Origin: a virus
Virus record (IMG/VR): IMGVR_UViG_3300031857_000542
Coordinates: 1-38,171 of that record
Reading direction: 5' to 3' (one strand)
Length of the DNA stretch: 38,171 nt
How positions within the stretch are numbered: the first letter of the stretch is position 1; every line of letters starts with the position of its first letter. Below are positions 5,298 to 37,132 of this stretch, one piece after another. The position numbers and the translations under genes are program-made. The notes below the pieces were generated by a model, which had not been told where the DNA came from, searched no databases, and worked only from the letters and a program-made list of their open reading frames with translations.

Positions 5298-6074
5298 CTA
5301 TTCTCCCCAATGCTTCTTTCTTAATTCGTAAATATCAATTGGTTCTCTTTTCATTTGATTACCAGGTTTGAAATATGCACCCTTCTTCAAATAACCACCT
5401 AAAAAGTTTCTTCTCATTCTTGTAGTATCTCTATTTGGGTCAGAACCATGTACAACGTGTGAATGTAAAAGTGCAACTTGTCCTTTCTTTAAGAAACCTT
5501 CTACTTTGCGAAAATCGTGTCCTTCTGGCATTACACAACTAATTCCTCTCTCACTTCTCCAGTTTGCTGTATTTGTTGCCTTTCTTTCCTCATTATCTTC
5601 CATTGGTAAAACGGGCAATCTATGCGAACCTTCATAATTCCATACTGCTCCGTTTTCAGGATCATGATTATCTAAAGCCAATGCTGTATTAATAATTTCA
5701 TTATGTCCACATCCCGTATAGAATGCATTTTGGTGTTGGTCTCTACCCAATTCACCCTTTGGTTTGAAGTATGCCCAAGTTTGCATTCCGACAACATCAC
5801 CTTCCATAAGGAATTCCATTGCTTCAATCAATTTTGGATGCGCAAATAATTTTGCTAATTTATCTGAAAGTTTATGCGGATACATAAATGGTTCAAACTC
5901 CTGCCATTTTTCAGGTTCTGCTGCATTTCTTTCTAATCTTAATCGGTCTAATTCTGCATTGATTTCATCGACTTCTGATTCTGTAAGTAATTCTAATACT
6001 GTCCAACCTCTATATCTCCAATCAAATGTCATTTGTTGGATTTCTTCGTTGGTAAGATGTTTAAATTTTGACAT
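5298..6074 (-). CDS. Phytanoyl-CoA dioxygenase (PhyH)-like 2-oxoglutarate/Fe(II) oxygenase, 258 aa
   Basis: Length and layout fit the PhyH family. An N-terminal helix region (YRGWTVLELLTESEVDEINAEL) is followed by VVGMQTWAYFKPKGELGRDQHQNAFY (94-119), the 'DNHDPENGAVWNYEGSHRLP' segment (135-154), and the distal strand LLHSHVVHGSDPNRD (202-216) with H209. Arginines at 219, 221 and 222 could hold 2-oxoglutarate. In this family the first metal motif is HxD; here it reads H114-Q-N116, so the carboxylate ligand appears to be Asn. Family members hydroxylate lipids, sugars or small metabolites, and phage copies are of unknown substrate. Possible roles are glycan or lipid tailoring. A 36-base gap separates it from the polymerase-like gene. 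Confidence 0.8.
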   Translation of the reverse strand: MSKFKHLTNEEIQQMTFDWRYRGWTVLELLTESEVDEINAELDRLRLERNAAEPEKWQEFEPFMYPHKLSDKLAKLFAHPKLIEAMEFLMEGDVVGMQTWAYFKPKGELGRDQHQNAFYTGCGHNEIINTALALDNHDPENGAVWNYEGSHRLPVLPMEDNEERKATNTANWRSERGISCVMPEGHDFRKVEGFLKKGQVALLHSHVVHGSDPNRDTTRMRRNFLGGYLKKGAYFKPGNQMKREPIDIYELRKKHWGE

Positions 6075-16540: not shown

Positions 16541-17029
16541 TTAGTATTCTAAAATCGCGTAATCGTATGCCAAAGTCAATTCGATTGATAATGGGTCATT
16601 TGATGCCCAATCCAATTCACCAAAGTTTGCTGAAGTGATAAACGCACCTTTCAATGTCCACTGCTCAATCTTATCACCAACTGGTCCTAACAAATAGAAA
16701 GTGATATCTTTCTTATAGAACGCTGCGTATCCATCTCTACCGGTCAATGATTCGTGTGATGTTCTAATCCACTCCATTACTTGCTGTGCACCTGATGGTA
16801 CAATTGGGTCATAAAGAGTAATGTTCACATCATCCCAAGTCGATTTACCCTTAATCTTTCTTTTTACATTGATATGGTCTAATTCTACTACTTCTGAACT
16901 GAAAGTTGGTCTACTTGCAGTTTTGATGATATATGATTCGATACCATTGATTTCCATAATGAATCTGTTACCAAGCTTTGGTTCAAAATTCTTATAGAAC
17001 ATTTTGTCAAACTCTAAAATTTCTGGCAT
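16541..17029 (-). CDS. Tail tube protein (T4 gp19-like), 162 aa
   Basis: 162 residues, almost the same length as T4 gp19 (163). Typical order of elements: FYKNFEPKLGNRFIMEINGIESYIIKTASRP (11-41), VELDHINVKRKIKGK, the WDDVNITLYDPIVPSGAQ strand-turn, then EWIRTSHESLTGRDGY, a WTLKGAFITSANFGELDW strand pair and the closing LSIELTLAYDYAILEY. These are hallmarks of the stacked-hexamer tube protein of contractile tails. It follows the sheath gene with a 49-base gap holding an exact promoter motif, and ends before a strong terminator, consistent with high expression. No oddities. Confidence 0.93.
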   Translation of the reverse strand: MPEILEFDKMFYKNFEPKLGNRFIMEINGIESYIIKTASRPTFSSEVVELDHINVKRKIKGKSTWDDVNITLYDPIVPSGAQQVMEWIRTSHESLTGRDGYAAFYKKDITFYLLGPVGDKIEQWTLKGAFITSANFGELDWASNDPLSIELTLAYDYAILEY

Positions 17030-17078: not shown

Positions 17079-19379
17079 TTATCCCGCGAAACTTGCACCA
17101 GTTGGTAAGATATTGAAATCAATTTGAATGAATTCAGCTGTCTTTGTTGGTTGTAAGTAGATAGCTCCTTTAAGGATATTTCTATCAATTACATCTGGTG
17201 TATTATTTGTTTCATCCATTACTACTCTGAAAGCGTAAAGACCTTGTCTTTGTTGGATTGATTCTAAATAAGGATTAACAATATTTAAGAATCTATTTCT
17301 TGTTTCAGAAGAGTTTTGTTCGAACACTAAATATTTTGAAGTTGAAGCGATATACTTTCTAACAGTCAATAATAATCTTCTTACGTTGATTCTATCCAAT
17401 GCTGATGGTTTATCTTGTAAAGTTTTCTGACCCCATACTACGATACCTTGTCCAGGGAACTGGCAGATTGGGTTTACTTTACCTTCGTATAATGTATCTC
17501 TTTCAGATTGAGTTACTTTATCTAATACTGAAACTGCTCCTACTAATCCACCTCTATTTAAACCTGCTGGTGCGAACCATTCTGCTGCTACTCTATCGTT
17601 TGCTGCGAATACGCCAGGTAATAATACTGATGGTGGAACTGTGATTAATTTATTTGTATTAACATCAATTGTTTTAATCCAAGGATAGTAAACTGCTGCG
17701 TAGTTTGAATCTACTGATTCAGCCTGTGTTACAGTTGCTGGTATTTTTGCATCAGCGTTTGCCGCATCTGCAATAAAGAATGCATCTGCTCTTTGCTCAA
17801 CCATATCAAGAATTGATGTCCAAACTGAACTATGGTCTGCTCTATTAACATGTGGTGCAACTACCATATTGATATCGTACTCATCTGTGTTAGATAGTGC
17901 TGCAATATGCGTTGCATATGCTGCTTTACCTGCTGTAGTTGATGGTTCTATATCTGCTGCGTTTGTATTTGGTGCATATCCATCAAAACCTTCTTGGAAT
18001 GCAACAATAAATTGTCTTTTTGCTAATTCAGCTGAACCTGTTCCTTCTGAACCACCTAATACTCTACCACAAACAGTATCTAATGAGAATACAGAATTAG
18101 AACCATTACCTGCTCCGTGTGGTATTGGTTTCATATAAATTTTATTGTCAGCATTATTATCTAAATCAATACCACTCATTTTTGCAGCATCTACTACTGA
18201 ACCAGTTGAGAATGTTACTCTTGGTATAAAACTTTCATAATCAGCACTTTTAATAATACTCTTATATGCAGCGTGTGCAAATGGTACTGCCTGTACAGGT
18301 GCTAATGCGTTTACATTTTGTATTCTAATATATTTTGAGTTATTTACCCAATCACCATTTTCTGTTACTTTACCTGTTAAAGAATTTATGCTTCTTTTTC
18401 TATCACCAATTACTCTACTAATATAGTTTGGAGAGTTAGGGTCAAGGTTTACGTTTGAGAAAGTTTCTAATACATTTTTCTTTTTGTCAGTATCATTGAA
18501 AGCTCTTACAACAACATTAAACGTACCATAATCAGTACCTGCTGTTGAGCCTGCTGCTTTTACATTCGTAATTGCAACTTTTACTTTTGTATTAGCTGCG
18601 TTACCTGCTGTAATAGTTTCAATCTGGAAAAGATTATATCTTTCACCTGAAATTAGTTGAGATTGAATATATGGAGTCAATGCTTCACATGCACTACCAT
18701 CACCTGCAGAACCACTAAATTTTTGATTATCTAATACAACTCTACTAACTACAACATTTGATGTAAACGAAGCTGTATAAGCTCCTGTATTTAAACCATC
18801 AGAATTTGATAATGTATAAGAACCTGTGTTAAATAAAAATCCATTTTCTTTAAAGAAAGCGTATGAATATGCAGATTTAACTCCGTATGGAGATGTACCA
18901 AATACTGCTTCAATATCATTAGGTTCTGTTAATTTTAAAGATGCACTTATATTAAATCCAGTTCCTGCTAATTTAAAATCACCACCACCATCTGAATCAC
19001 TAACGCTTATGCCCGCAAATCCAGCTGCACTACCTGATGTGTTGAATAAGATACCCAAAGCACCTGATTGTGAACCCGATGCTGCTATTAATAATAGCGG
19101 TGCATTTTCTGTATATCCTGCAGCTCCTGCTACTCTACAAATTGTTGCCGTTCCTGCTTCTCTTAAATAGTTTTGTACTGCTAATGGGGTATAGTAAGTA
19201 CCATCAACACTACCAAATAATTGTTCGAATTCTGCTTGTGAATTAACAATTGTAGGTACTAATGGTCCTTCTTTAAAAGGTCCAATAAACGCTGCACCAA
19301 TATCAGCAATTCCTTGTTGTAAGAATGAAAGGTCGTTTTCTTTTGTAAATACGCCTGGTGATACTAATTTCTCTGCCAT
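17079..19379 (-). CDS. Tail sheath protein (T4 gp18-like), 766 aa
   Basis: The N-terminus SPGVFTKENDLS and GAAFIGPFKEGPLVPTIVNS then FEQLFG is the standard sheath opening. The C-terminal domain includes RINVRRLLLTVRKYIASTSK, VFEQNSSETRN and FIQIDFNILPTG, the conserved core that forms the handshake mesh around the tube. A long variable Gly/Ser/Ala-rich middle (about 90-350) corresponds to surface-exposed insert domains, and makes the protein longer than T4 gp18 (659 aa). Neighbouring tube and tape measure genes confirm a contractile tail. The motif ATATTTATA lies 38-46 bases upstream. Confidence 0.95.
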   Translation of the reverse strand: MAEKLVSPGVFTKENDLSFLQQGIADIGAAFIGPFKEGPLVPTIVNSQAEFEQLFGSVDGTYYTPLAVQNYLREAGTATICRVAGAAGYTENAPLLLIAASGSQSGALGILFNTSGSAAGFAGISVSDSDGGGDFKLAGTGFNISASLKLTEPNDIEAVFGTSPYGVKSAYSYAFFKENGFLFNTGSYTLSNSDGLNTGAYTASFTSNVVVSRVVLDNQKFSGSAGDGSACEALTPYIQSQLISGERYNLFQIETITAGNAANTKVKVAITNVKAAGSTAGTDYGTFNVVVRAFNDTDKKKNVLETFSNVNLDPNSPNYISRVIGDRKRSINSLTGKVTENGDWVNNSKYIRIQNVNALAPVQAVPFAHAAYKSIIKSADYESFIPRVTFSTGSVVDAAKMSGIDLDNNADNKIYMKPIPHGAGNGSNSVFSLDTVCGRVLGGSEGTGSAELAKRQFIVAFQEGFDGYAPNTNAADIEPSTTAGKAAYATHIAALSNTDEYDINMVVAPHVNRADHSSVWTSILDMVEQRADAFFIADAANADAKIPATVTQAESVDSNYAAVYYPWIKTIDVNTNKLITVPPSVLLPGVFAANDRVAAEWFAPAGLNRGGLVGAVSVLDKVTQSERDTLYEGKVNPICQFPGQGIVVWGQKTLQDKPSALDRINVRRLLLTVRKYIASTSKYLVFEQNSSETRNRFLNIVNPYLESIQQRQGLYAFRVVMDETNNTPDVIDRNILKGAIYLQPTKTAEFIQIDFNILPTGASFAG

Positions 19380-19449: not shown

Positions 19450-21177
19450 TTATGGTCGATATGTTGGTTGGAAATAATCATAAACTTGTCCTATTTCAGA
19501 AGAACTCAATTGTCTATTGTAAAACAATACAGGTCCCATTTGCCCATTAAAATAATAATTGTTTTCTGCAAAGTTACCACCAACTTGAATTAATGCGGAT
19601 GTTGTATATGTTTGTGTACCATTTGATACCGTACCTCTAGATGTTTTATCTGTAAATGCTTCGTTTGTTCCGTTAGCTTTTGCGGAATATGTAATCATAT
19701 ACCAAGTATTTGTATTTAAAGTAAATGAATTACTATTAAATTGTATATTTGTTCCATCGTGTATAAAATATGTACCACTACCATTTGAATTCAAATACAA
19801 AGATATTAATCTATTAGCTGTTCCTGATGTAGTTTGTTTATTAAATATTTGGTAATATCCATTTGATGGATGTGATGTAAATCTAACCCAAGCTATAACC
19901 GTATATTCTGATGTATTAAATTGTGTATATCCACCATTGATATTTGTTGTACCATCTTTATACCAAAATTTATTTGTAGATAATGACCAATATTTATCAA
20001 TTCTAGTTGCACCACTATTGTATGTTGGATTACCACCACTAATACCCGCCGCATTCGATACTCCTGCAGGTCTAACACCAGTTCCCCATCCTGTCAAATC
20101 TAACCAATCGGCTGTATCTGAACCCTGATAAGATGATGTTTTTGATGGGTCTAAATACATTCTTAATCCCGATGCTGGTATTGGTGGTTGTGTTGTTGTA
20201 CCTTTGTTATGTGAAATCAATCCATTAGAAATATATACGTCTGCATTTTCTACATTCACAGTTACAATTTCAACATCTTCTCTGATTAATTCAATATTTA
20301 CAACTTCTACTTCCGATTGGTCTTGCATTATTAGTTTATCTCCTGGAAGTATATCACCTACATTTTTAAATTTATATTTGCCAATTTCATTATCCCAAAC
20401 ATATAATGGGTGAGTTTCAGTTGCTTTGATTAATCCATTATTTACTGAAATATATCCTGGAGCAAAATTAAAAGTTAAATCCGAAACCGTTACATTCTGT
20501 TCGTTGCCTGATATTGTATCTGATAGGAAAAATCTCCATTCAACTTGTTCACTTTCAGGGTCTTGAGTTTCATCAGGTAACCCAGTTGGGACCCATGCTT
20601 TTATTTGGTCACCAACATTTAAATCTTCCACATTTACCATATTACCGTTTGCTAATTGAATTTGCGTTCCAAATAATAAACAGAAATCATTTTCATTTAT
20701 TGTATTATAAACATCAACTGCGTATAAAGTTTTTGTCGTTTTTACACCATAATTTGTTGCATTGATATTATAACCATCAGCATATCCCATTGTTAATACT
20801 GCAGATGCTTCTGAATAATTTGATTGTGCAATCGATGCAGGAGTAATTGGTATAATTGTAGGGCCGGTTCCAAATGTATTAGAACCTGTAGTAAAATTAG
20901 AATTATTAAACGAACAAGTAAAGTTTGCTAATTGTTGTTGTACTTTTGAATAGAAAAGTGAGCCGGTTGTTGAAAATGTAAAATTTGCATTTTCTGTTGT
21001 ACTCTCTACAATATATGTGAATGTAGGTGGATTTACTGTTACAGAATCCATTGCAAATCCATCTCTCATCGATGCTTGCACTCCGCCGGCTAATCCTCCT
21101 AAAGAAACTGCTCCAACTCTTGCTGAACCGCTTACTGCTCTATATAAGTTACCTAATGATAAGTTAGTTCTTGCCAT
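19450..21177 (-). CDS. Virion protein with embedded Hint (intein-like) domain and C-terminal LamG domain, 575 aa
   Basis: Three parts. Residues 1-165: Ser/Thr/Asn-rich N-terminal region beginning SLGNLYRAVSGSARVGAVSLG, a pattern I associate with phage virion proteins. Residues 166-324: a Hint domain. C166 starts the block-A-like CLLFGTQIQLANG, T253-E-T-H256 forms the TxxH block-B motif (ATETHPLYVW), LPGDKLI is at 277-283, and the end is VYISNGLISHN with H323-N324. Residues ~337-570: a LamG/concanavalin-like fold (LRMYLDPSKTSSYQG, YTVIAWVRF, GPVLFYNRQLSSSEI). At ~159 aa the Hint part is too small for a homing endonuclease. Residue +1 is Lys325, not Cys/Ser/Thr, so cleavage is more likely than splicing. 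It lies 11 bases after the glycosyltransferase. Confidence 0.85.
   Translation of the reverse strand: MARTNLSLGNLYRAVSGSARVGAVSLGGLAGGVQASMRDGFAMDSVTVNPPTFTYIVESTTENANFTFSTTGSLFYSKVQQQLANFTCSFNNSNFTTGSNTFGTGPTIIPITPASIAQSNYSEASAVLTMGYADGYNINATNYGVKTTKTLYAVDVYNTINENDFCLLFGTQIQLANGNMVNVEDLNVGDQIKAWVPTGLPDETQDPESEQVEWRFFLSDTISGNEQNVTVSDLTFNFAPGYISVNNGLIKATETHPLYVWDNEIGKYKFKNVGDILPGDKLIMQDQSEVEVVNIELIREDVEIVTVNVENADVYISNGLISHNKGTTTQPPIPASGLRMYLDPSKTSSYQGSDTADWLDLTGWGTGVRPAGVSNAAGISGGNPTYNSGATRIDKYWSLSTNKFWYKDGTTNINGGYTQFNTSEYTVIAWVRFTSHPSNGYYQIFNKQTTSGTANRLISLYLNSNGSGTYFIHDGTNIQFNSNSFTLNTNTWYMITYSAKANGTNEAFTDKTSRGTVSNGTQTYTTSALIQVGGNFAENNYYFNGQMGPVLFYNRQLSSSEIGQVYDYFQPTYRP
20206..20682 (-). other. 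Hint (bacterial intein-like) autoprocessing domain
   Basis: Segment coding for C166 to N324 of the 575-aa protein. Visible catalytic set: N-terminal Cys (codon 20680-20682), TxxH histidine 256, penultimate His323 and terminal Asn324. The +1 residue is Lys. This combination is typical of bacterial intein-like domains that cleave at one or both ends rather than splice. Confidence 0.8.
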
Positions 21178-21188
21178 GTATTAATTGA

Positions 21189-22187
21189 TTATAATCCATT
21201 ATAAATATCTAAAAGTTTTTGTTTCCACACCTCTTTATTTGAAAAGTGTTCTATCATCCAATTTTTAAGTTTTTCAAACTCGCTTTTACGGGTTTCGTAA
21301 TCATCTTTACAAATCGTTTCGTAGGTTTGTTTAAATGTTTCCTTGTCAGACGCTTTGTACTTATAATCAAGTGGAACGTGCCATTTTTCATGTAATATTG
21401 GTAATTTACCCCAATCAACTGCTTCAAATATTCCATATCCGAAGGGTTCATATTCAAAACAAGAGTGAGATATCCCCCAATCAAGTCCGTAGAACTTTTC
21501 TTTATGTTTGTAATTAAACGGATATATTTTTGATTTTTCAAATCGGTATCCATATTTTTCTCTATAATATCTTTTAAATGTTTGTGAGTTTGTAAATATA
21601 AATGAATCCAATCCATCAATATATTCTACATTTTTTCTACCTTCTGCTCTTGCTGCAAATCCTATTTTTGTATTATCTTTTATTTCCTTTTTATGTGAAA
21701 ATTCGTAATAATTGGAAATATGATAAAGATTTTCGGTTTGATATGGAAAGTTATACAATCCAACCCAAATTTTACTTTTAATTTTATTAATTAATTCCGT
21801 TTCCCACTCCCAATTTCCATACCAATGTAAATATTGGTCTTTATTCATTTGACCTACCATTGATACTTTTGTCAAATTATGAAATACAATTGAATCTATT
21901 TTTTCTAAATTGTTGTGTATTGCTGTTGTTGGTGTGTAGTGACCATGAAGAATGTGTATCTTTCTTGCACCCTTTAATATTCTATCTATTTCCAATTCAT
22001 TGGTTTCCCAAATATGGTCAATATCAATTGGAAATTGTTCGTAATTATCTGGTTTTTTTCTATGGAAAACTAGAAGTGGCTTTACTTCTAAATAAGGTGC
22101 CACTTCCTCTATCCAATTAGTTACCCATATATCAGCACCGCTGTTGAACCAAGGGCCTCCAGCGGTGGTATAATAAACATCATACAT
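21189..22187 (-). CDS. GT-B fold glycosyltransferase (GT4-like), 332 aa
   Basis: The C-terminal Rossmann half contains the nucleotide-sugar site: GFAARAEGRKNVEYIDG (176-192) with R180, R184 and K185 as likely phosphate ligands. The classic EPFGYGIFEAVDWGKLPIL (247-265) has E247-x7-E255. The N-terminus has the acceptor-side GGPWFNSGADIW loop (10-22). No signal peptide or membrane anchor, so it acts in the host cytoplasm. It is encoded between a giant fibre gene (3-base gap) and the Hint-LamG gene (11-base gap). It most likely decorates fibre or other virion proteins with sugar; DNA glucosylation or modification of host glycans are less supported alternatives. Confidence 0.8.
   Translation of the reverse strand: MYDVYYTTAGGPWFNSGADIWVTNWIEEVAPYLEVKPLLVFHRKKPDNYEQFPIDIDHIWETNELEIDRILKGARKIHILHGHYTPTTAIHNNLEKIDSIVFHNLTKVSMVGQMNKDQYLHWYGNWEWETELINKIKSKIWVGLYNFPYQTENLYHISNYYEFSHKKEIKDNTKIGFAARAEGRKNVEYIDGLDSFIFTNSQTFKRYYREKYGYRFEKSKIYPFNYKHKEKFYGLDWGISHSCFEYEPFGYGIFEAVDWGKLPILHEKWHVPLDYKYKASDKETFKQTYETICKDDYETRKSEFEKLKNWMIEHFSNKEVWKQKLLDIYNGL
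21200..21208 (-). promoter_or_regulatory. Candidate late promoter motif ATATTTATA
   Basis: Exact copy, 23-31 bases upstream of the Hint-LamG gene, embedded in the last codons of the glycosyltransferase gene. Retention inside a coding end argues that it is functional. Confidence 0.5.
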
Positions 22188-22190
22188 TAA

Positions 22191-25100
22191 TTATAACCCT
22201 TTATTTCTACAATTATCTAAATCTATTCTTAATTGTTCAATTTGTAATTGTTGTTCTTTTATACCTTCAATTAATAATGCTACTAATTTATCGTATTTAA
22301 CTGCTTTATATCCACTTTCTCTTGTCTGAACTAATTGTGGTAATACTGCTTCAATTTCTTGTGCGATTACACCCACATCATTTCCTTCGTATCCGTGCTC
22401 AATTTTGTTTTCTTCTTTCCAATCGTAAGTGTTACCACTAATCTTTCTGATTTTGTCGATTGCGTTTTCGATTGGTTTAATATTCTCTTTGAAACGAATA
22501 TCCGAAGATGAGAATGCTACGATATCATTTGTTGCATCAATTCTACCAGCGGTAGCGGATGCTGCCATACCTATACCTAATGAGTTGAATTGAACGTTAG
22601 ATGATGTTGTTACTGCCTGTCCGATTGAAATTGTACAACTATCGCCGGTTGTTGCACTTACCGATACACCAGTACCTGCTGCAATACTTCTAACACCCGT
22701 ATTTGTAATTGTGACTGCACCTGTTGCACCACTTACTGAAATACCACTACCTGCTACATTTGAAGTTACACCGGCATTAGTTAAAGTTACAGACCCACCC
22801 AATGATACCGAACCACCACCACTCATACCAGTTCCAGCAGTTACTGTCACCGAAGAGTTTGCCAATTGTCCGTTTGTAATCGCTGCGGTTCCACTTAAAT
22901 TGGATGTTGTTAAACCACTAATTTGAGATGAACCTGATATAATTCCACTTGCACCTGTGATTGTTGCTAATGTAATTGTGCCTCCAAGTGAAGTAGATGT
23001 TCCTGCAATTGTAATTGCGTTGTTCGTTAAACCAATTGTTGGAGTTGCACCTTCACCTGTATTATTAGAAAGTGTAATGTTAGTTCCTGCTACTAATGAT
23101 GCCACATAGTTACCAGATGTTCTAGTTCCTAATGCAATATCACCAGTTGTTGATGCAACATTGATTTGCGAAGAACCCGAAACTACTCCCACTGCATTTA
23201 ATCTAGTCAAAATACCACTTGCGTAGTTTGTAGTTGCGGTTAAATCAATTTGTGATGAACCCGATACAACAGAATCACCACCTGTATTAAGATATCTACT
23301 ATCAAAATCGGTTGTTAATTGTGATGAACCGGATACTATTCCGCTATTTCCTGTGATTGTTGCTAATGTAATTGACCCACCTAATGATGTCGAAGTACCA
23401 GCTATTGTTATTGCTGAATTACTTAATTTATCATTTGCAATTGAACCCGCTAACATTGCGTTGGTTACTCCACCTGTTGCTACTGAAATAGTTCTAGTTG
23501 TAGAAATATCTCCACCACCTGTTAAACCACTTCCCGCTGTAATTGAAACCGCCGTATGGTCAACGTGTCTATTTGCTGAATATCCGGTTGTTGAATCGTG
23601 TGATACTTGTGATGAACCACTTATAACGGTATTTGAATTTAGTTGAGTTTTAACATCAGTTGCAAAGTTTGTAGTTGAACCTGCAGTAATTTGCGATGAA
23701 CCGGAAACTAAATTTGGAATAGTAATATCGGCAGAACCATTAAATGAAGTTCCGTTGATTGTTCTTGCAGTTTGTAAAGTAGTTGCAGTTGATGCATTAC
23801 CTGTTAATGCTCCTGTAAATCCAGTAGAAGTTACTGAAGTTAATCCCGTTAATGTAGTTGATGATGCTCCTAATGATATTGCCGTTGTACCGATAGTTAC
23901 GGAACTATTAGTTAATTGTGCATTACCGATTCCTGTTACTTGTGATGAACCACTAAATGCTCCAATTGCATTTCCGATAACTGCCGCAGTAATTGAACCA
24001 CCTAATGAAACCGAAGTTCCTGCTATTGTTATTGAACTATTTGTAAGGGAAGCATTCGCAATATTTGAAAGTGTATTTGATGCACCACTTATAGTTTTAT
24101 TTGTAAGTGTCTGTGTACCTGTTGTAGTTGCTATTGGTAATTCGGAACCTAAAGCACCTGCTATCCAATAATCATTTGTTGTATCCCAAAGGAATGAACC
24201 TGATGTTGTAGTTGCTGCTGTTGCATCTCTAACTACTAAACCGGCATTAGTTGCACCAGTACCATTTAATTGAATAATATTATCTGCTATATTAACTACT
24301 GTCGAATCTATTTGAGTAGTTGTACCTTGTACAGTCAAATTACCTTTAACGGTAACATTTGCACCACTTAATCCAAATGCAGTATTAAATGAAGACGTGA
24401 ATGTTTCTAAATTATTAGTATCAATTATTAAACTTGCAGTTGCGGAGTTTAAATTTGATATTGAAGTATCAATTGAGCCCGTTTTTGTAGCTAATGTAGT
24501 AAATCTTGTATCATATGAACCCGTTAAGGTTGCTAATGTAGTAAATCTTGTATTTGCCGAAGCGCTAAATAATTCTAAATTTGTAGTTTCAATTATTAAA
24601 CTTGCAGTTGCGGAGTTTAAATTAGAAACTGAAGTGTTTAATGAACTGGTTGCTGATTGCACTCCTGTAAATTGTCCACTTATTACTGAATAATTTGTAG
24701 TTGCTGTTACATCTACCTGTGATGAACCCGAAACAACTCCAGTACCTTGTAATATTGTAGCCGCAGTAATAGTTCCACCCAAAGCGGTTGATGTTCCTGC
24801 AATAGTAATTGAACTATTTGTAAGAGATGAATTTGCAATACTACTCAATGTATTATTTGCACCACTTATAGTTTTATTTGATAAACTTACGGTTGCTGTT
24901 GGAAAAGAACTTGTATAAGAGTTCAAATTACTAACCGAAGTATTTAAACTTGCGGTTGTCAATTCTAAATTAGAAGTTTCAGTTTCTAAATTACTTAATC
25001 TAGTTAACGCAGATGCAGTATGTGAGTTTAAATTCGAAACTGAAGTATTTAATGAACCTGTTGTAGTTCCTACAGCTGTCATTCTTGTTTCTAAAGATGA

Positions 25101-27446
25101 AGTGTAAGTACCTATTGTATTATGTCTTGTATCGTAAGAACCAGTTAAGGTTGCAAGAGTAGTAAATCTCGTATCTACTGAAGCTGTATAAGTAGCTAAA
25201 GTTGAAGATTTAGTATTTTCCGAAGCTGTAAATGAATTAATATTACTTACTGAAGTGTTTAAACTTGCAGTTGTTAAATTTAAGTTTGTTATTGAAACTC
25301 CTTGTGAATCATTTGTAGTCTTTGCTGCTGATGCTGATGCTATTAAACTTCCACTAACTACACCGATTTCTGTCAACCTTGTATTAACTGAACCCGTATA
25401 AGTTGCTAATGTACTATTTTGAGTTAATTGAGATGAACTAAATGAGTTTAAGTTCGTTACTGAAGTATTTAAACTAGCAGTTGTAGAATTTATGTTTGAA
25501 ACGGAAGTGTTTAATGAACCTGTTGCTGTTGCTACTGTACTCATTCTTGTTTCTAGAGATGATGTGTACGTGCCTATAGCCGTATGTCTTGTATCGTAAG
25601 AACCAGTTAAGGTTGCAAGAGTAGTAAATCTCGTATCTACTGAACCTGTATATGTTCCTAAAGTTGTAAATCTCGTATCATATGAACCAGTTAAGGTTGC
25701 TAAAGTTGTAGATTTAGTATTTTCCGAAGAACTAAATGAGTTAAGATTTGTTATAGAAGTATTAACACTTGCAGAAGTTGTTTCTAAATTTGTAAGTCTA
25801 ACACCAGCTGATGAAGTAAAAGAATTAATATTTATTACTGAAGTGTTTAAACTTGCAGTTGTTAAATTTACATTTGAATTTAAAACAGAAACGTCTACTC
25901 CATCAACGGTTCCTGTTAGTGTAATATTTCCTACAACATCAACTGATTTATTAATATCTAAAGTAGAGTTGGTGTGGTCCCAAAGAATACTTGCATTTGC
26001 ACCACTAATAAAAATACCTGCTCCATTTGCATCAACGGAAGCAGTTGTACCTATTGCTAATTCAATTAGTTTATCTTCAACTAAAAGATTAGTTGTATTA
26101 AGTGTTGTTGTATCACCTTGTACAGTTAAGTTACCCAAAACTGTCAAATCTGCTCCACTTACGGATAAAGCCGTTTTTAGAGAACTTGTATAAGAGTTTA
26201 AATTAATATTTGCTATCGATGCAGCACTTGCTGATGTAATCAAACTACCACTAACTACTCCAATTTCAGTCAATCTTGTAGTAACCGAACCTGTATAAGT
26301 TGCTAAATTACTATTTTGTGTAAGTTGTGAGGAACTGAATAACTCTAAATTTGTAGTTTCAATTATTAAACTTGCCGTTGCTGAATTTATATTTGTTATA
26401 CTTACACCCTGTGAATCGTTTGTGGTTTTTGCTGCAGATGCTGATGTAATCAAACTACCACTAACTACTCCAATTTCGGTTAATCTAGTCAATACAGAGG
26501 AACTGAATAACTCTAAATTTGTAGTTTCAATTATTAAACTTGCAGTTGCGGAGTTTAAATTGGAAACCGATGTATTTAATGAACCTGTTGCGGTTCCTAC
26601 AGCCGTCATTCTTGTTTCAAGAGATGATGTATAAGTTCCTAATGTGGTAAACCTTGTATCTACTGAACCACTATAAGTTCCCAAAGTACCAAATCTTGTA
26701 TCAACCGAAGCGGTATAAGTTGCTAAATTCGATGATTTACTATTTTCGGATGCGCTAAATGAATTTAAATTATCAATCGATACCTGCTGTGATGCGGATG
26801 ATAAATTTAAGTTAGTTATTGAAGTATTAATAGAACCCGTATAGGTTGCTAATGTGGTAAACCTTGTATCTACTGAACCTGTATAAGTTCCTAAATTAGT
26901 AAATCTACCATCAACTGATGCGGTATAAGTTGCTAAATTACTATTTTGTGTAAGTTGTGAAGAACTGAATAACTCTAAATTTGTAGTTTCAATTATTAAA
27001 CTTGCAGTTGTAGAGTTTATATTTGAATTTAGAACCGAAATATCAACACCATCAACGTTTCCGCCGACAGTAATATTTCCACCTATGTATATATCTTTAT
27101 ATTTTTTAGATGAACTACCTAAATCAAATGTATTATCGTTTGAAGGTATAAGTGATGAACTTAAATTTGCAGATACAACAACCGTATCTGCTGTTTGGTC
27201 ACCTATTGTGATGTTACCACCCAATGTAAGATTTCCGTAAACTACCGCATTACCTGAAATTTCTAAAGACGAACCAGAAATTGCACCAAATTGACCTGTA
27301 GCCGTTGCTCCAAACGTTGCTAATGTTACATCTCCTGTATCTAAACCTACTTGTAATGTTCCTAATGTAGTATTTACATATGGTTCTCCGAATGCTAACG
27401 AACCTGATTTCTGTGCGGTTGTCCCACGTCTAAATTTAAGTGCCAT
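22191..27446 (-). CDS. Giant tail fibre protein with Peptidase_S74 chaperone, 1751 aa
   Basis: The N-terminus KFRRGTTAQKSGSLAFGEPY matches the short attachment segment shared by many phage fibres. The central part is long arrays of a 14-residue repeat (consensus like LATYTGSVDTRFTT), interrupted by two beta modules (LTVLGNLTVQGDTTTLNT... and LTVQGTTTQIDST...). From about residue 1050 there is a Gly/Ser/Thr-rich beta region with many 'VSGSSQ' motifs. The last ~105 residues are a Peptidase_S74 domain beginning SSDIRFKENIKPIENAI (S1647), with GVIAQEIEA and YDKLVALLIEGIKEQQLQI coiled coil. The domain helps trimerise the fibre and then releases itself at the SD site. Paralogue of the 1685-aa gene upstream. 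Confidence 0.88.
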   Translation of the reverse strand: MALKFRRGTTAQKSGSLAFGEPYVNTTLGTLQVGLDTGDVTLATFGATATGQFGAISGSSLEISGNAVVYGNLTLGGNITIGDQTADTVVVSANLSSSLIPSNDNTFDLGSSSKKYKDIYIGGNITVGGNVDGVDISVLNSNINSTTASLIIETTNLELFSSSQLTQNSNLATYTASVDGRFTNLGTYTGSVDTRFTTLATYTGSINTSITNLNLSSASQQVSIDNLNSFSASENSKSSNLATYTASVDTRFGTLGTYSGSVDTRFTTLGTYTSSLETRMTAVGTATGSLNTSVSNLNSATASLIIETTNLELFSSSVLTRLTEIGVVSGSLITSASAAKTTNDSQGVSITNINSATASLIIETTNLELFSSSQLTQNSNLATYTGSVTTRLTEIGVVSGSLITSASAASIANINLNSYTSSLKTALSVSGADLTVLGNLTVQGDTTTLNTTNLLVEDKLIELAIGTTASVDANGAGIFISGANASILWDHTNSTLDINKSVDVVGNITLTGTVDGVDVSVLNSNVNLTTASLNTSVININSFTSSAGVRLTNLETTSASVNTSITNLNSFSSSENTKSTTLATLTGSYDTRFTTLGTYTGSVDTRFTTLATLTGSYDTRHTAIGTYTSSLETRMSTVATATGSLNTSVSNINSTTASLNTSVTNLNSFSSSQLTQNSTLATYTGSVNTRLTEIGVVSGSLIASASAAKTTNDSQGVSITNLNLTTASLNTSVSNINSFTASENTKSSTLATYTASVDTRFTTLATLTGSYDTRHNTIGTYTSSLETRMTAVGTTTGSLNTSVSNLNSHTASALTRLSNLETETSNLELTTASLNTSVSNLNSYTSSFPTATVSLSNKTISGANNTLSSIANSSLTNSSITIAGTSTALGGTITAATILQGTGVVSGSSQVDVTATTNYSVISGQFTGVQSATSSLNTSVSNLNSATASLIIETTNLELFSASANTRFTTLATLTGSYDTRFTTLATKTGSIDTSISNLNSATASLIIDTNNLETFTSSFNTAFGLSGANVTVKGNLTVQGTTTQIDSTVVNIADNIIQLNGTGATNAGLVVRDATAATTTSGSFLWDTTNDYWIAGALGSELPIATTTGTQTLTNKTISGASNTLSNIANASLTNSSITIAGTSVSLGGSITAAVIGNAIGAFSGSSQVTGIGNAQLTNSSVTIGTTAISLGASSTTLTGLTSVTSTGFTGALTGNASTATTLQTARTINGTSFNGSADITIPNLVSGSSQITAGSTTNFATDVKTQLNSNTVISGSSQVSHDSTTGYSANRHVDHTAVSITAGSGLTGGGDISTTRTISVATGGVTNAMLAGSIANDKLSNSAITIAGTSTSLGGSITLATITGNSGIVSGSSQLTTDFDSRYLNTGGDSVVSGSSQIDLTATTNYASGILTRLNAVGVVSGSSQINVASTTGDIALGTRTSGNYVASLVAGTNITLSNNTGEGATPTIGLTNNAITIAGTSTSLGGTITLATITGASGIISGSSQISGLTTSNLSGTAAITNGQLANSSVTVTAGTGMSGGGSVSLGGSVTLTNAGVTSNVAGSGISVSGATGAVTITNTGVRSIAAGTGVSVSATTGDSCTISIGQAVTTSSNVQFNSLGIGMAASATAGRIDATNDIVAFSSSDIRFKENIKPIENAIDKIRKISGNTYDWKEENKIEHGYEGNDVGVIAQEIEAVLPQLVQTRESGYKAVKYDKLVALLIEGIKEQQLQIEQLRIDLDNCRNKGL
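22194..22508 (-). other. Peptidase_S74 intramolecular chaperone domain (1751-aa fibre)
   Basis: Codes for residues 1647-1751. The SSDIRFKENI start shows the conserved S-D-x-R-x-K pattern in which Ser and Lys make the self-cleaving dyad. GVIAQEIEAVLPQLV and a terminal coiled coil follow. Cleavage is expected before the Ser of 'SD' (codon 22503-22505). Confidence 0.85.
22501..22547 (-). repeat. 47-bp exact repeat, copy 1
   Basis: Identical to 27778-27824. Both copies encode GRIDATNDIVAFSSSD at the border of fibre body and S74 domain in the two giant fibre genes. Confidence 0.85.
24450..27020 (-). repeat. 42-bp / 14-residue tandem repeat region in the 1751-aa fibre
   Basis: Degenerate repeats of 14 residues, e.g. 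LATYTGSVDTRFTT, LGTYTGSVDTRFTT, LNSATASLIIETTN, LELFSSSQLTQNSN. Positions 1, 4, 8 and 12 are hydrophobic, giving 14 residues per four turns, as expected of a trimeric helical or mixed shaft. Blocks are interrupted by a beta module at about 25,850-26,200. Confidence 0.75.
26332..27005 (-). repeat. Three exact 44-bp copies within the fibre repeat region
   Basis: Identical 44-base blocks at 26332-26375, 26500-26543 and 26962-27005, encoding the ASLIIETTNLELFSS step of the shaft. Identity at DNA level, including third positions, points to recent duplication or gene conversion. Confidence 0.8.
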
Positions 27447-36394: not shown

Positions 36395-37132
36395 TTATAA
36401 TCCGAAACGTGATTTAGTTGCATTGTGGTTTTGTAAAATTTCTGCTGCAGTTAATACTCTATTATATATCATTATTTCAGATATACTTCCGTTGTATGGA
36501 TAGTTGCCCGTTGGACTTAAACCACCACCTGTAAATGCTGAACGTCCAATCCAAACTTCTTGTGAATTTGAAATTGTTCCTGTTAAAGTATCCGAAACAT
36601 TTCTAACCTCAACACCATTAACATATAATCTTAATGTTGAATCATTTCTTGTAAACATTACATTATACCAATTTCCATTATTATAATTTGTTAAAACCGA
36701 AGTTACACTTACGTTTTCTCCTCCTGATTGTGCTACATCTCCAACAATAGTTCCTCCATTTAACCATATTCTATAATTCCAAGGCCAACCTGCAGTTGTT
36801 TCTTTTGATAATATCATTTTGATTCCGGCTGCAGAAGATTTAAACCATGCACCAACTGAAAATTCTTCCGATGCTAAACTTTGATTGGTATCTACATAAT
36901 GAGTTGCACCATTAAATGTCAAAGTTCCACCACCGTCTGCAGAATACCCTGTTCCATTTACAAGAGTTGTAGTGTAAGCATTGTTTGATAAATCTGTCCA
37001 AGAAGTTCCTGAACCAGGATATGAAGTTATATTACCAGCATTTAAATATAATTGTAAATTTTGGGTTACAATTCCTAATACTGAATTGGTATTAGGCGTT
37101 ATATTAAATCCGTTTGAAAATTGTATTCCCAT
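36395..37132 (-). CDS. LamG / concanavalin A-like lectin-domain protein, 245 aa
   Basis: Almost the whole protein is one LamG-type jelly-roll. The start LQLYLNAGNITSYPGSGTSW then TDLSNNAYTTTLVNG is typical of the LamG_3 type. The core strands are LTFNGATHYVDT, FSVGAWFKS, WYNVMFTRNDSTLRLYVNGVEV, and the signature end is ISEIMIYNRVLTAAEILQNHNA. Such domains bind carbohydrates and are common in phage adhesins. The 36 residues before it are a short attachment segment (MGIQFSNGFNITPNTNS). Encoded among fibre genes, so a receptor-binding or capsid-decorating role is likely. It shares fold and key motifs with the end of the 575-aa Hint protein. Confidence 0.85.
   Translation of the reverse strand: MGIQFSNGFNITPNTNSVLGIVTQNLQLYLNAGNITSYPGSGTSWTDLSNNAYTTTLVNGTGYSADGGGTLTFNGATHYVDTNQSLASEEFSVGAWFKSSAAGIKMILSKETTAGWPWNYRIWLNGGTIVGDVAQSGGENVSVTSVLTNYNNGNWYNVMFTRNDSTLRLYVNGVEVRNVSDTLTGTISNSQEVWIGRSAFTGGGLSPTGNYPYNGSISEIMIYNRVLTAAEILQNHNATKSRFGL

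Follow-up and report, generated by a model that had tools for sequence, protein, structure and literature searches.

Background

Hint domains are known as inteins; Hedgehog, toxins and secreted bacterial proteins carry them as well. The ciliate BUBL loci, which are eukaryotic, carry bacterial intein-like (BIL) domains that flank ubiquitin-like domains. Type-A BIL domains end in His-Asn and lack a nucleophile at the +1 position; a thioester is formed at their N-terminus and cyclisation of the Asn cuts their C-terminus (PMC4031507). They are also able to ligate by aminolysis, with cleavage dominating (PMC4031507). In the PT-HINT polymorphic toxins, a constant N-terminal part is followed by a Hint domain placed directly before an exchangeable C-terminal domain (PMC3482391). 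Tail-region proteins ending in a Hint domain with a Cys start and a terminal HN exist in jumbo phages, including Erwinia phage Y3 (gp110), NCTB and Yersinia phage fHe-Yen9-02, and the Hints of the Y3 gp110 and NCTB tail proteins are annotated as intein. No reported function for the jumbo-phage tail-region Hints was found in the literature, and a search of the open-licence literature for Hints of phage tail proteins led to inteins of terminase or ribonucleotide reductase and to toxins alone, with no functional study of a phage tail Hint.

In this study, we analyzed a Hint-bearing protein encoded on the IMG/VR virus record IMGVR_UViG_3300031857_000542, the window being the whole stretch of 38,171 nt. 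The original prediction, made from the DNA letters, had described a phage adhesin with an embedded, probably non-splicing Hint domain in front of a LamG lectin domain. Predicted structure, profile searches and surveys of relatives were employed, focusing on the fold, conservation, genomic context and probable chemistry of the domain.

Results and discussion

Organization of the protein

An open reading frame with C166, a TxxH motif (H256), H323-N324, K325 at the +1 position and a LamG domain behind them was present, with every one of these residues at the position originally predicted. The features are listed below.

19450..21177, minus strand: whole gene for the N-domain, Hint and LamG protein; open reading frame of 575 aa, homologues found
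20683..21177, minus strand: N-terminal domain (N-domain), residues 1-165; conserved throughout the relatives
20206..20682, minus strand: Hint (type-A BIL-like) domain, C166-N324; from Foldseek, profile search and PHROG 38766
20680..20682, minus strand: Cys166, predicted thioester former; invariant in 140 of 140
20410..20412, minus strand: His256 of the TxxH motif; invariant in 140 of 140
20206..20211, minus strand: His323-Asn324, predicted Asn-cyclisation site; invariant in 140 of 140
20200..20205, minus strand: Lys325-Gly326 (+1, +2); K in 237 and G in 235 of 238 distinct homologues
19453..20199, minus strand: LamG (concanavalin-A-like) C-terminal passenger, residues 327-575; Pfam PF13385 at 416-562

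The stretch from C166 to N324 comprises 159 residues, and its TxxH motif reads T253-E-T-H256. The LamG family PF13385 matched residues 416-562 with an E-value of 2.5e-13 (50.9 bits against a gathering threshold of 27.6), and in the AlphaFold2 model the N-domain is mostly beta with short N-terminal helices. A free-standing LamG protein (PF13385, E 1.4e-21) with no Hint attached is encoded at 36395-37132 (minus strand) of the window, so LamG also occurs without a Hint in the same phage. At 5298-6074 (minus strand) of the window lies a gene whose product resembles, by eye, a phytanoyl-CoA dioxygenase-type protein.

Fold of the Hint domain

Single-sequence Pfam matches to Hint families were all below the gathering threshold (Hint_2, E 0.02; PT-HINT, E 0.025; Intein_splicing, E 0.11), while PHROG 38766, named virion structural protein, matched residues 146-326 with an E-value of 1.4e-8. 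An AlphaFold2 model of the 575-aa protein was built from 71 aligned relatives and had a mean pLDDT of 86.4, with most of the Hint region at 86-94; the low-confidence spots include residues 157-163 and 326-329, which border both predicted cut sites. When the Hint part of the model was compared with the PDB by Foldseek, BIL domains came first, at E about 1e-9: the best match was the Clostridium thermocellum BIL domain 2lwy (TMt 0.82, 3.1 A, 22% identity), the second was Tetrahymena BUBL1 BIL2 (6y75/6tmm, TMt 0.73-0.76), and inteins came after these. A profile of 63 Hint segments (A5), run against the PDB, led to the same two domains, with E-values of 5.8e-10 for the C. thermocellum BIL and about 2e-9 for Tetrahymena BUBL1 BIL2. 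The embedded Hint domain of the original prediction is thus borne out; it is secure despite the sub-threshold Pfam scores, and its closest fold, as modelled, is that of the BIL domains.

Three other kinds of match were discarded. An AXH (PF08517) match on the Hint fell under the cut-off and was taken for chance beta similarity, sortase-like phmmer matches had E-values above 0.1 and were considered to be chance, and the trans-sialidase that headed the overall Foldseek results, with a global TM of about 0.3 and an rmsd of 20 A, was taken for a LamG-type match rather than a whole-protein one.

Distribution and conservation

Scans of IMG/VR revealed hundreds of relatives of the N-domain plus Hint protein, and no cellular relatives were found in GTDB contigs. 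Judged from these sequences, the family is kept in many related aquatic phages; rather than a peculiarity of a single adhesin, it is a large and broad phage family. Among 140 distinct N-domain plus Hint proteins, whose identity over the N-domain and Hint drops to about 35%, the residues C166, H256, P257, H323, N324, K325 and G326 were found to be invariant, and T253 was T in 131. In a set of 71 diverse sequences, four of the five catalytic residues predicted beforehand fell among the ten invariant Hint columns (hypergeometric P 4e-5); the fifth, T253, lay outside them and was T in 67 of the 71. Within the LamG-bearing group, mean pairwise identity was 72% for the Hint, 70% for the N-domain and 60% for LamG.

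Against circularity, a search was run with the N-domain as the only query, and 80 loci were retrieved. All 80 carried a Hint with a C-terminal His-Asn and none was an empty allele (an N-domain without Hint), which argues against a selfish intein. Three members of this set were labelled 'HNIT', which likely marks an additional HN within their FN3-like domain rather than another +1 residue (compare L361). In a set of proteins of FN3 type retrieved without use of the HN motif, HN^KG (His323-Asn324^Lys325-Gly326 in the window) was kept in 24 of 24. Sampling bias of the pattern scan as the source of the HN^KG invariance was therefore ruled out, because it holds in scans independent of the motif.

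Exchange of the C-terminal passenger

A total of 238 distinct sequences were classified by the segment that follows HN^KG, among which 142 were LamG-sized, 76 were FN3-sized, 17 were of at most 12 aa and 3 were of 13-30 aa. A single 'noHN' label among the 238 (L105) was an alignment offset, the protein of the same contig having HNKG. LamG-like passengers comprise about 220-257 residues and FN3-like passengers about 100-110, the Pfam fn3 match of the latter being weak and sub-threshold (E 0.0012), and minimal tails have 4-12 residues. Five of the minimal-tail relatives (L310-L313 and L360) instead have an insertion of about 170 residues in the N-terminal part, ahead of the Hint.

As originally predicted, the +1 residue is not Cys, Ser or Thr: it was Lys in 237 of the 238 sequences, the lone exception being a Thr in a paralogue, and +2 was Gly in 235, with variation from +3 on. 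Other Hint proteins of the same phages may carry Val, Ala, Thr or Gly at +1. Since Lys-Gly stays constant while the residues from +3 onward vary, it behaves as part of the Hint module and not of the passenger; read from the alignments, the module boundary is at HN^KG and the passenger is exchangeable. The codons for H-N-K-G vary synonymously, which rules out a DNA-level constraint on HNKG and indicates that selection acts on the protein. A further Hint, encoded on the minus strand of L184, ends in AHN^KGG and is fused to a long tail-protein-like sequence, and thus has Lys at +1 in a different context.

Neighbouring genes

The neighbours of the gene in the window are as follows.

16541..17029, minus strand: tail tube protein (gp19-like); beyond the tail sheath gene
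17079..19379, minus strand: tail sheath protein; next gene downstream of the Hint gene
21189..22187, minus strand: GT-B/GT4-like glycosyltransferase; directly upstream of the Hint gene, conserved partner
22191..27446, minus strand: long fibre with a C-terminal Peptidase_S74 chaperone domain (PF13884, E 3.4e-17)

Both neighbours named in the original prediction, the S74 fibre and the glycosyltransferase, were confirmed, and the order S74 fibre, glycosyltransferase, Hint protein, tail sheath and tail tube is found in the close loci. The upstream gene product has a GT-B fold, with Foldseek matches to tll1591, BshA, WaaG and PimA (E 1e-10 to 1e-6) and an invariant EPFG motif; a profile search of the PDB gave nothing usable for it, and its identity comes from the predicted structure. 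Of the 175 cases that could be tested, 174 have its gene next to the Hint gene. In L098 the reading frames of both the glycosyltransferase and the tail sheath are broken into two pieces, possibly by sequencing errors. We infer an adhesin role and a virion location for the Hint protein from its domains, this gene order and the name of PHROG 38766.

A glycosyltransferase homologue also adjoins an unrelated fibre protein ending in a Hint (HN^KH) in a 484-kb phage. In L339 and L371, a homologue lies within a cluster of several glycosyltransferase genes with no Hint protein nearby, so the link between Hint and glycosyltransferase is strong, not absolute. That cluster sits beside Thr-rich, mucin-like repeat proteins, and its gene content suggests glycosylation of phage surface proteins.

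Other Hint proteins of these phages

Several distant phages encode a second Hint protein upstream of the glycosyltransferase, often with the ending HN^VHxK. A second, different Hint protein has this position in L310, L311, L312, L313, L316 and L381, several times with the form ...YGGGGC...HN^VHxK-stop. Those at L317:2304-3008 and L400:3214-3918, also upstream of the glycosyltransferase, end in YFANGYLCRQ/CHQ without His-Asn; they are putative natural variants in which the site of C-terminal cleavage is lost and Cys1 kept. Separate proteins with two or three tandem Hints, showing motifs such as ..THN^CFPAGT.. and ..VHN^FKYSGGS^CFVAGT..VHNK-stop, were recorded elsewhere in genomes of the same phages, at L467:1318-3621 (a 245-kb close relative, G001) and L468:1218-2552 (G006). 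No relatives of the L084 Hint protein were found in IMG/VR.

Comparison with known Hint systems

The phage domain shares with the type-A BIL of C. thermocellum (2lwy) the Hint fold, an N-terminal Cys, TxxH, a C-terminal His-Asn, the lack of Cys, Ser or Thr at +1, and modular neighbours. It differs in its near-invariant Lys-Gly at +1 and +2, its linked glycosyltransferase gene and its setting: BILs lie in hypervariable regions of variable, non-conserved bacterial proteins, whereas the phage Hint sits in a conserved tail-module protein in all members, and every relative has the conserved pair of N-domain and Hint. As this feature is contextual rather than mechanistic, we call the domain type-A-BIL-like and not a plain member of the class. 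The ciliate BUBL BIL domains (6y75, 6tmm) are a close structural match as well (TMt about 0.75), but a ubiquitin-like domain was not seen in the phage protein. Unlike in the PT-HINT toxins, the C-terminal part is LamG or FN3-like and not a toxin, and no immunity gene was seen, the next gene encoding the tail sheath. Inteins have Cys, Ser or Thr at +1 and a sporadic presence with empty alleles, and the phage Hint has neither. In contrast to Hedgehog (Hog), it has a terminal HN and is followed by LamG, an FN3-like domain or nothing, with no sterol-recognition region. The jumbo-phage Hints, in turn, have unrelated, often collagen-like N-terminal parts, T, A, V or K at +1, and no exchangeable passenger.

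Proposed mechanism and alternatives

Because the active site is invariant, self-processing is predicted to be likely, and the sequence record makes it very probable that the Hint is functional machinery and not a parasitic element. The reading that we favour, with somewhat better than even confidence, is an active, type-A-BIL-like autoprocessing on both sides of the domain whose conserved purpose would probably be the processing or activation of the N-domain C-terminus. After folding, Cys166 would attack the Phe165-Cys166 bond and form a thioester, and Asn324 would cyclise, cutting the Asn324-Lys325 bond; the Hint would thereby be excised, so that the C-terminus of the N-domain would be processed and the C-terminal part would begin with Lys-Gly. 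As in type-A BILs, mostly cleavage products would be expected, together with a smaller share of N-domain ligated to Lys325. The description 'probably non-splicing' is too strong, as type-A BILs are also able to splice by aminolysis, even if cleavage is their dominant outcome (PMC4031507). Release of LamG as the general purpose did not survive the comparison: the same N-domain and Hint bear an FN3-like domain in some relatives and only 4-12 residues after HN in others, in which cleavage on the C side would free almost nothing. Since the Hint and the Lys at +1 persist with two unrelated passengers or with almost none, LamG release is not the whole purpose, and the persistence without a lectin makes processing of the N-domain C-terminus the more likely one; separation of the passenger would be a consequence in the LamG-bearing phage.

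Pure cleavage does not explain the conservation of Lys at +1, and this conservation speaks for net ligation, in which the Hint would splice out and the N-domain would be joined to Lys325-Gly-LamG through the alpha-amine or, more unusually, the side chain. Lys and Gly are held at +1 and +2 while the passenger is swapped or missing, V, A, T or G may occupy +1 in other Hints of these phages, and type-A BILs are able to splice without Cys, Ser or Thr there (PMC4031507). However, cleavage products dominate in the type-A BILs studied (PMC4031507), and if splicing were seamless, it would be difficult to account for an ever-present Hint that lacks empty alleles, except where timing is important. We regard net ligation as an unlikely outcome.

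Capture of the N-domain thioester by a nucleophile on another molecule (an amine of a virion protein or a sugar), with the C-terminal part only flanking, is considered improbable; it would operate by analogy with Hedgehog or the ciliate loci in which BIL domains accompany ubiquitin-like domains. The minimal relatives, stopping so soon past HN, place the conserved event on the N side; Tetrahymena BUBL1 BIL2 is the second-best BIL match, and the glycosyltransferase adjoins both the Hint gene and the unrelated Hint fibre protein of the 484-kb phage. Against this, there is no known acceptor and no Hedgehog-type sterol-recognition region, and the glycosyltransferase, which in L339 and L371 has no Hint protein nearby, may do no more than add sugars to virion proteins or receptors. 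Similarly doubtful is a version in which Lys325, as a working residue of the Hint, would accept the N-domain from the Cys166 thioester through its side chain or freed alpha-amine. The constant tail protein would in this way be welded to a receptor-binding domain that can be exchanged, or to a short tag, and the neighbouring glycosyltransferase might assist.

A catalytically silent Hint retained as a structural spacer is very improbable, as the catalytic residues are invariant at only about 35% identity while most of the domain varies. A selfish mini-intein that lost its homing endonuclease and lies in the adhesin by chance would account for the Hint fold and the intein-like motifs, but it is scarcely credible for a domain present in every N-domain relative found, with no endonuclease, with Lys rather than Cys, Ser or Thr at +1 in all but one Thr-bearing paralogue, and with a passenger swapped at its border.

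Conclusions

No paper on this phage family, its invariant Lys at +1 or the glycosyltransferase link was found in the open-licence literature. Such a family would answer the question of how a BIL domain serves its bearer. The Lys at +1 makes ligation without Cys, Ser or Thr testable and may be of use in protein engineering; if true, lysine-dependent welding would add a new class to Hint chemistry as well as to virion assembly. With a complete Hint site, an invariant +1 Lys and ends of lectin or FN3-like type that can be exchanged, these phages would be able to mature or swap their receptor-binding parts at the protein level.
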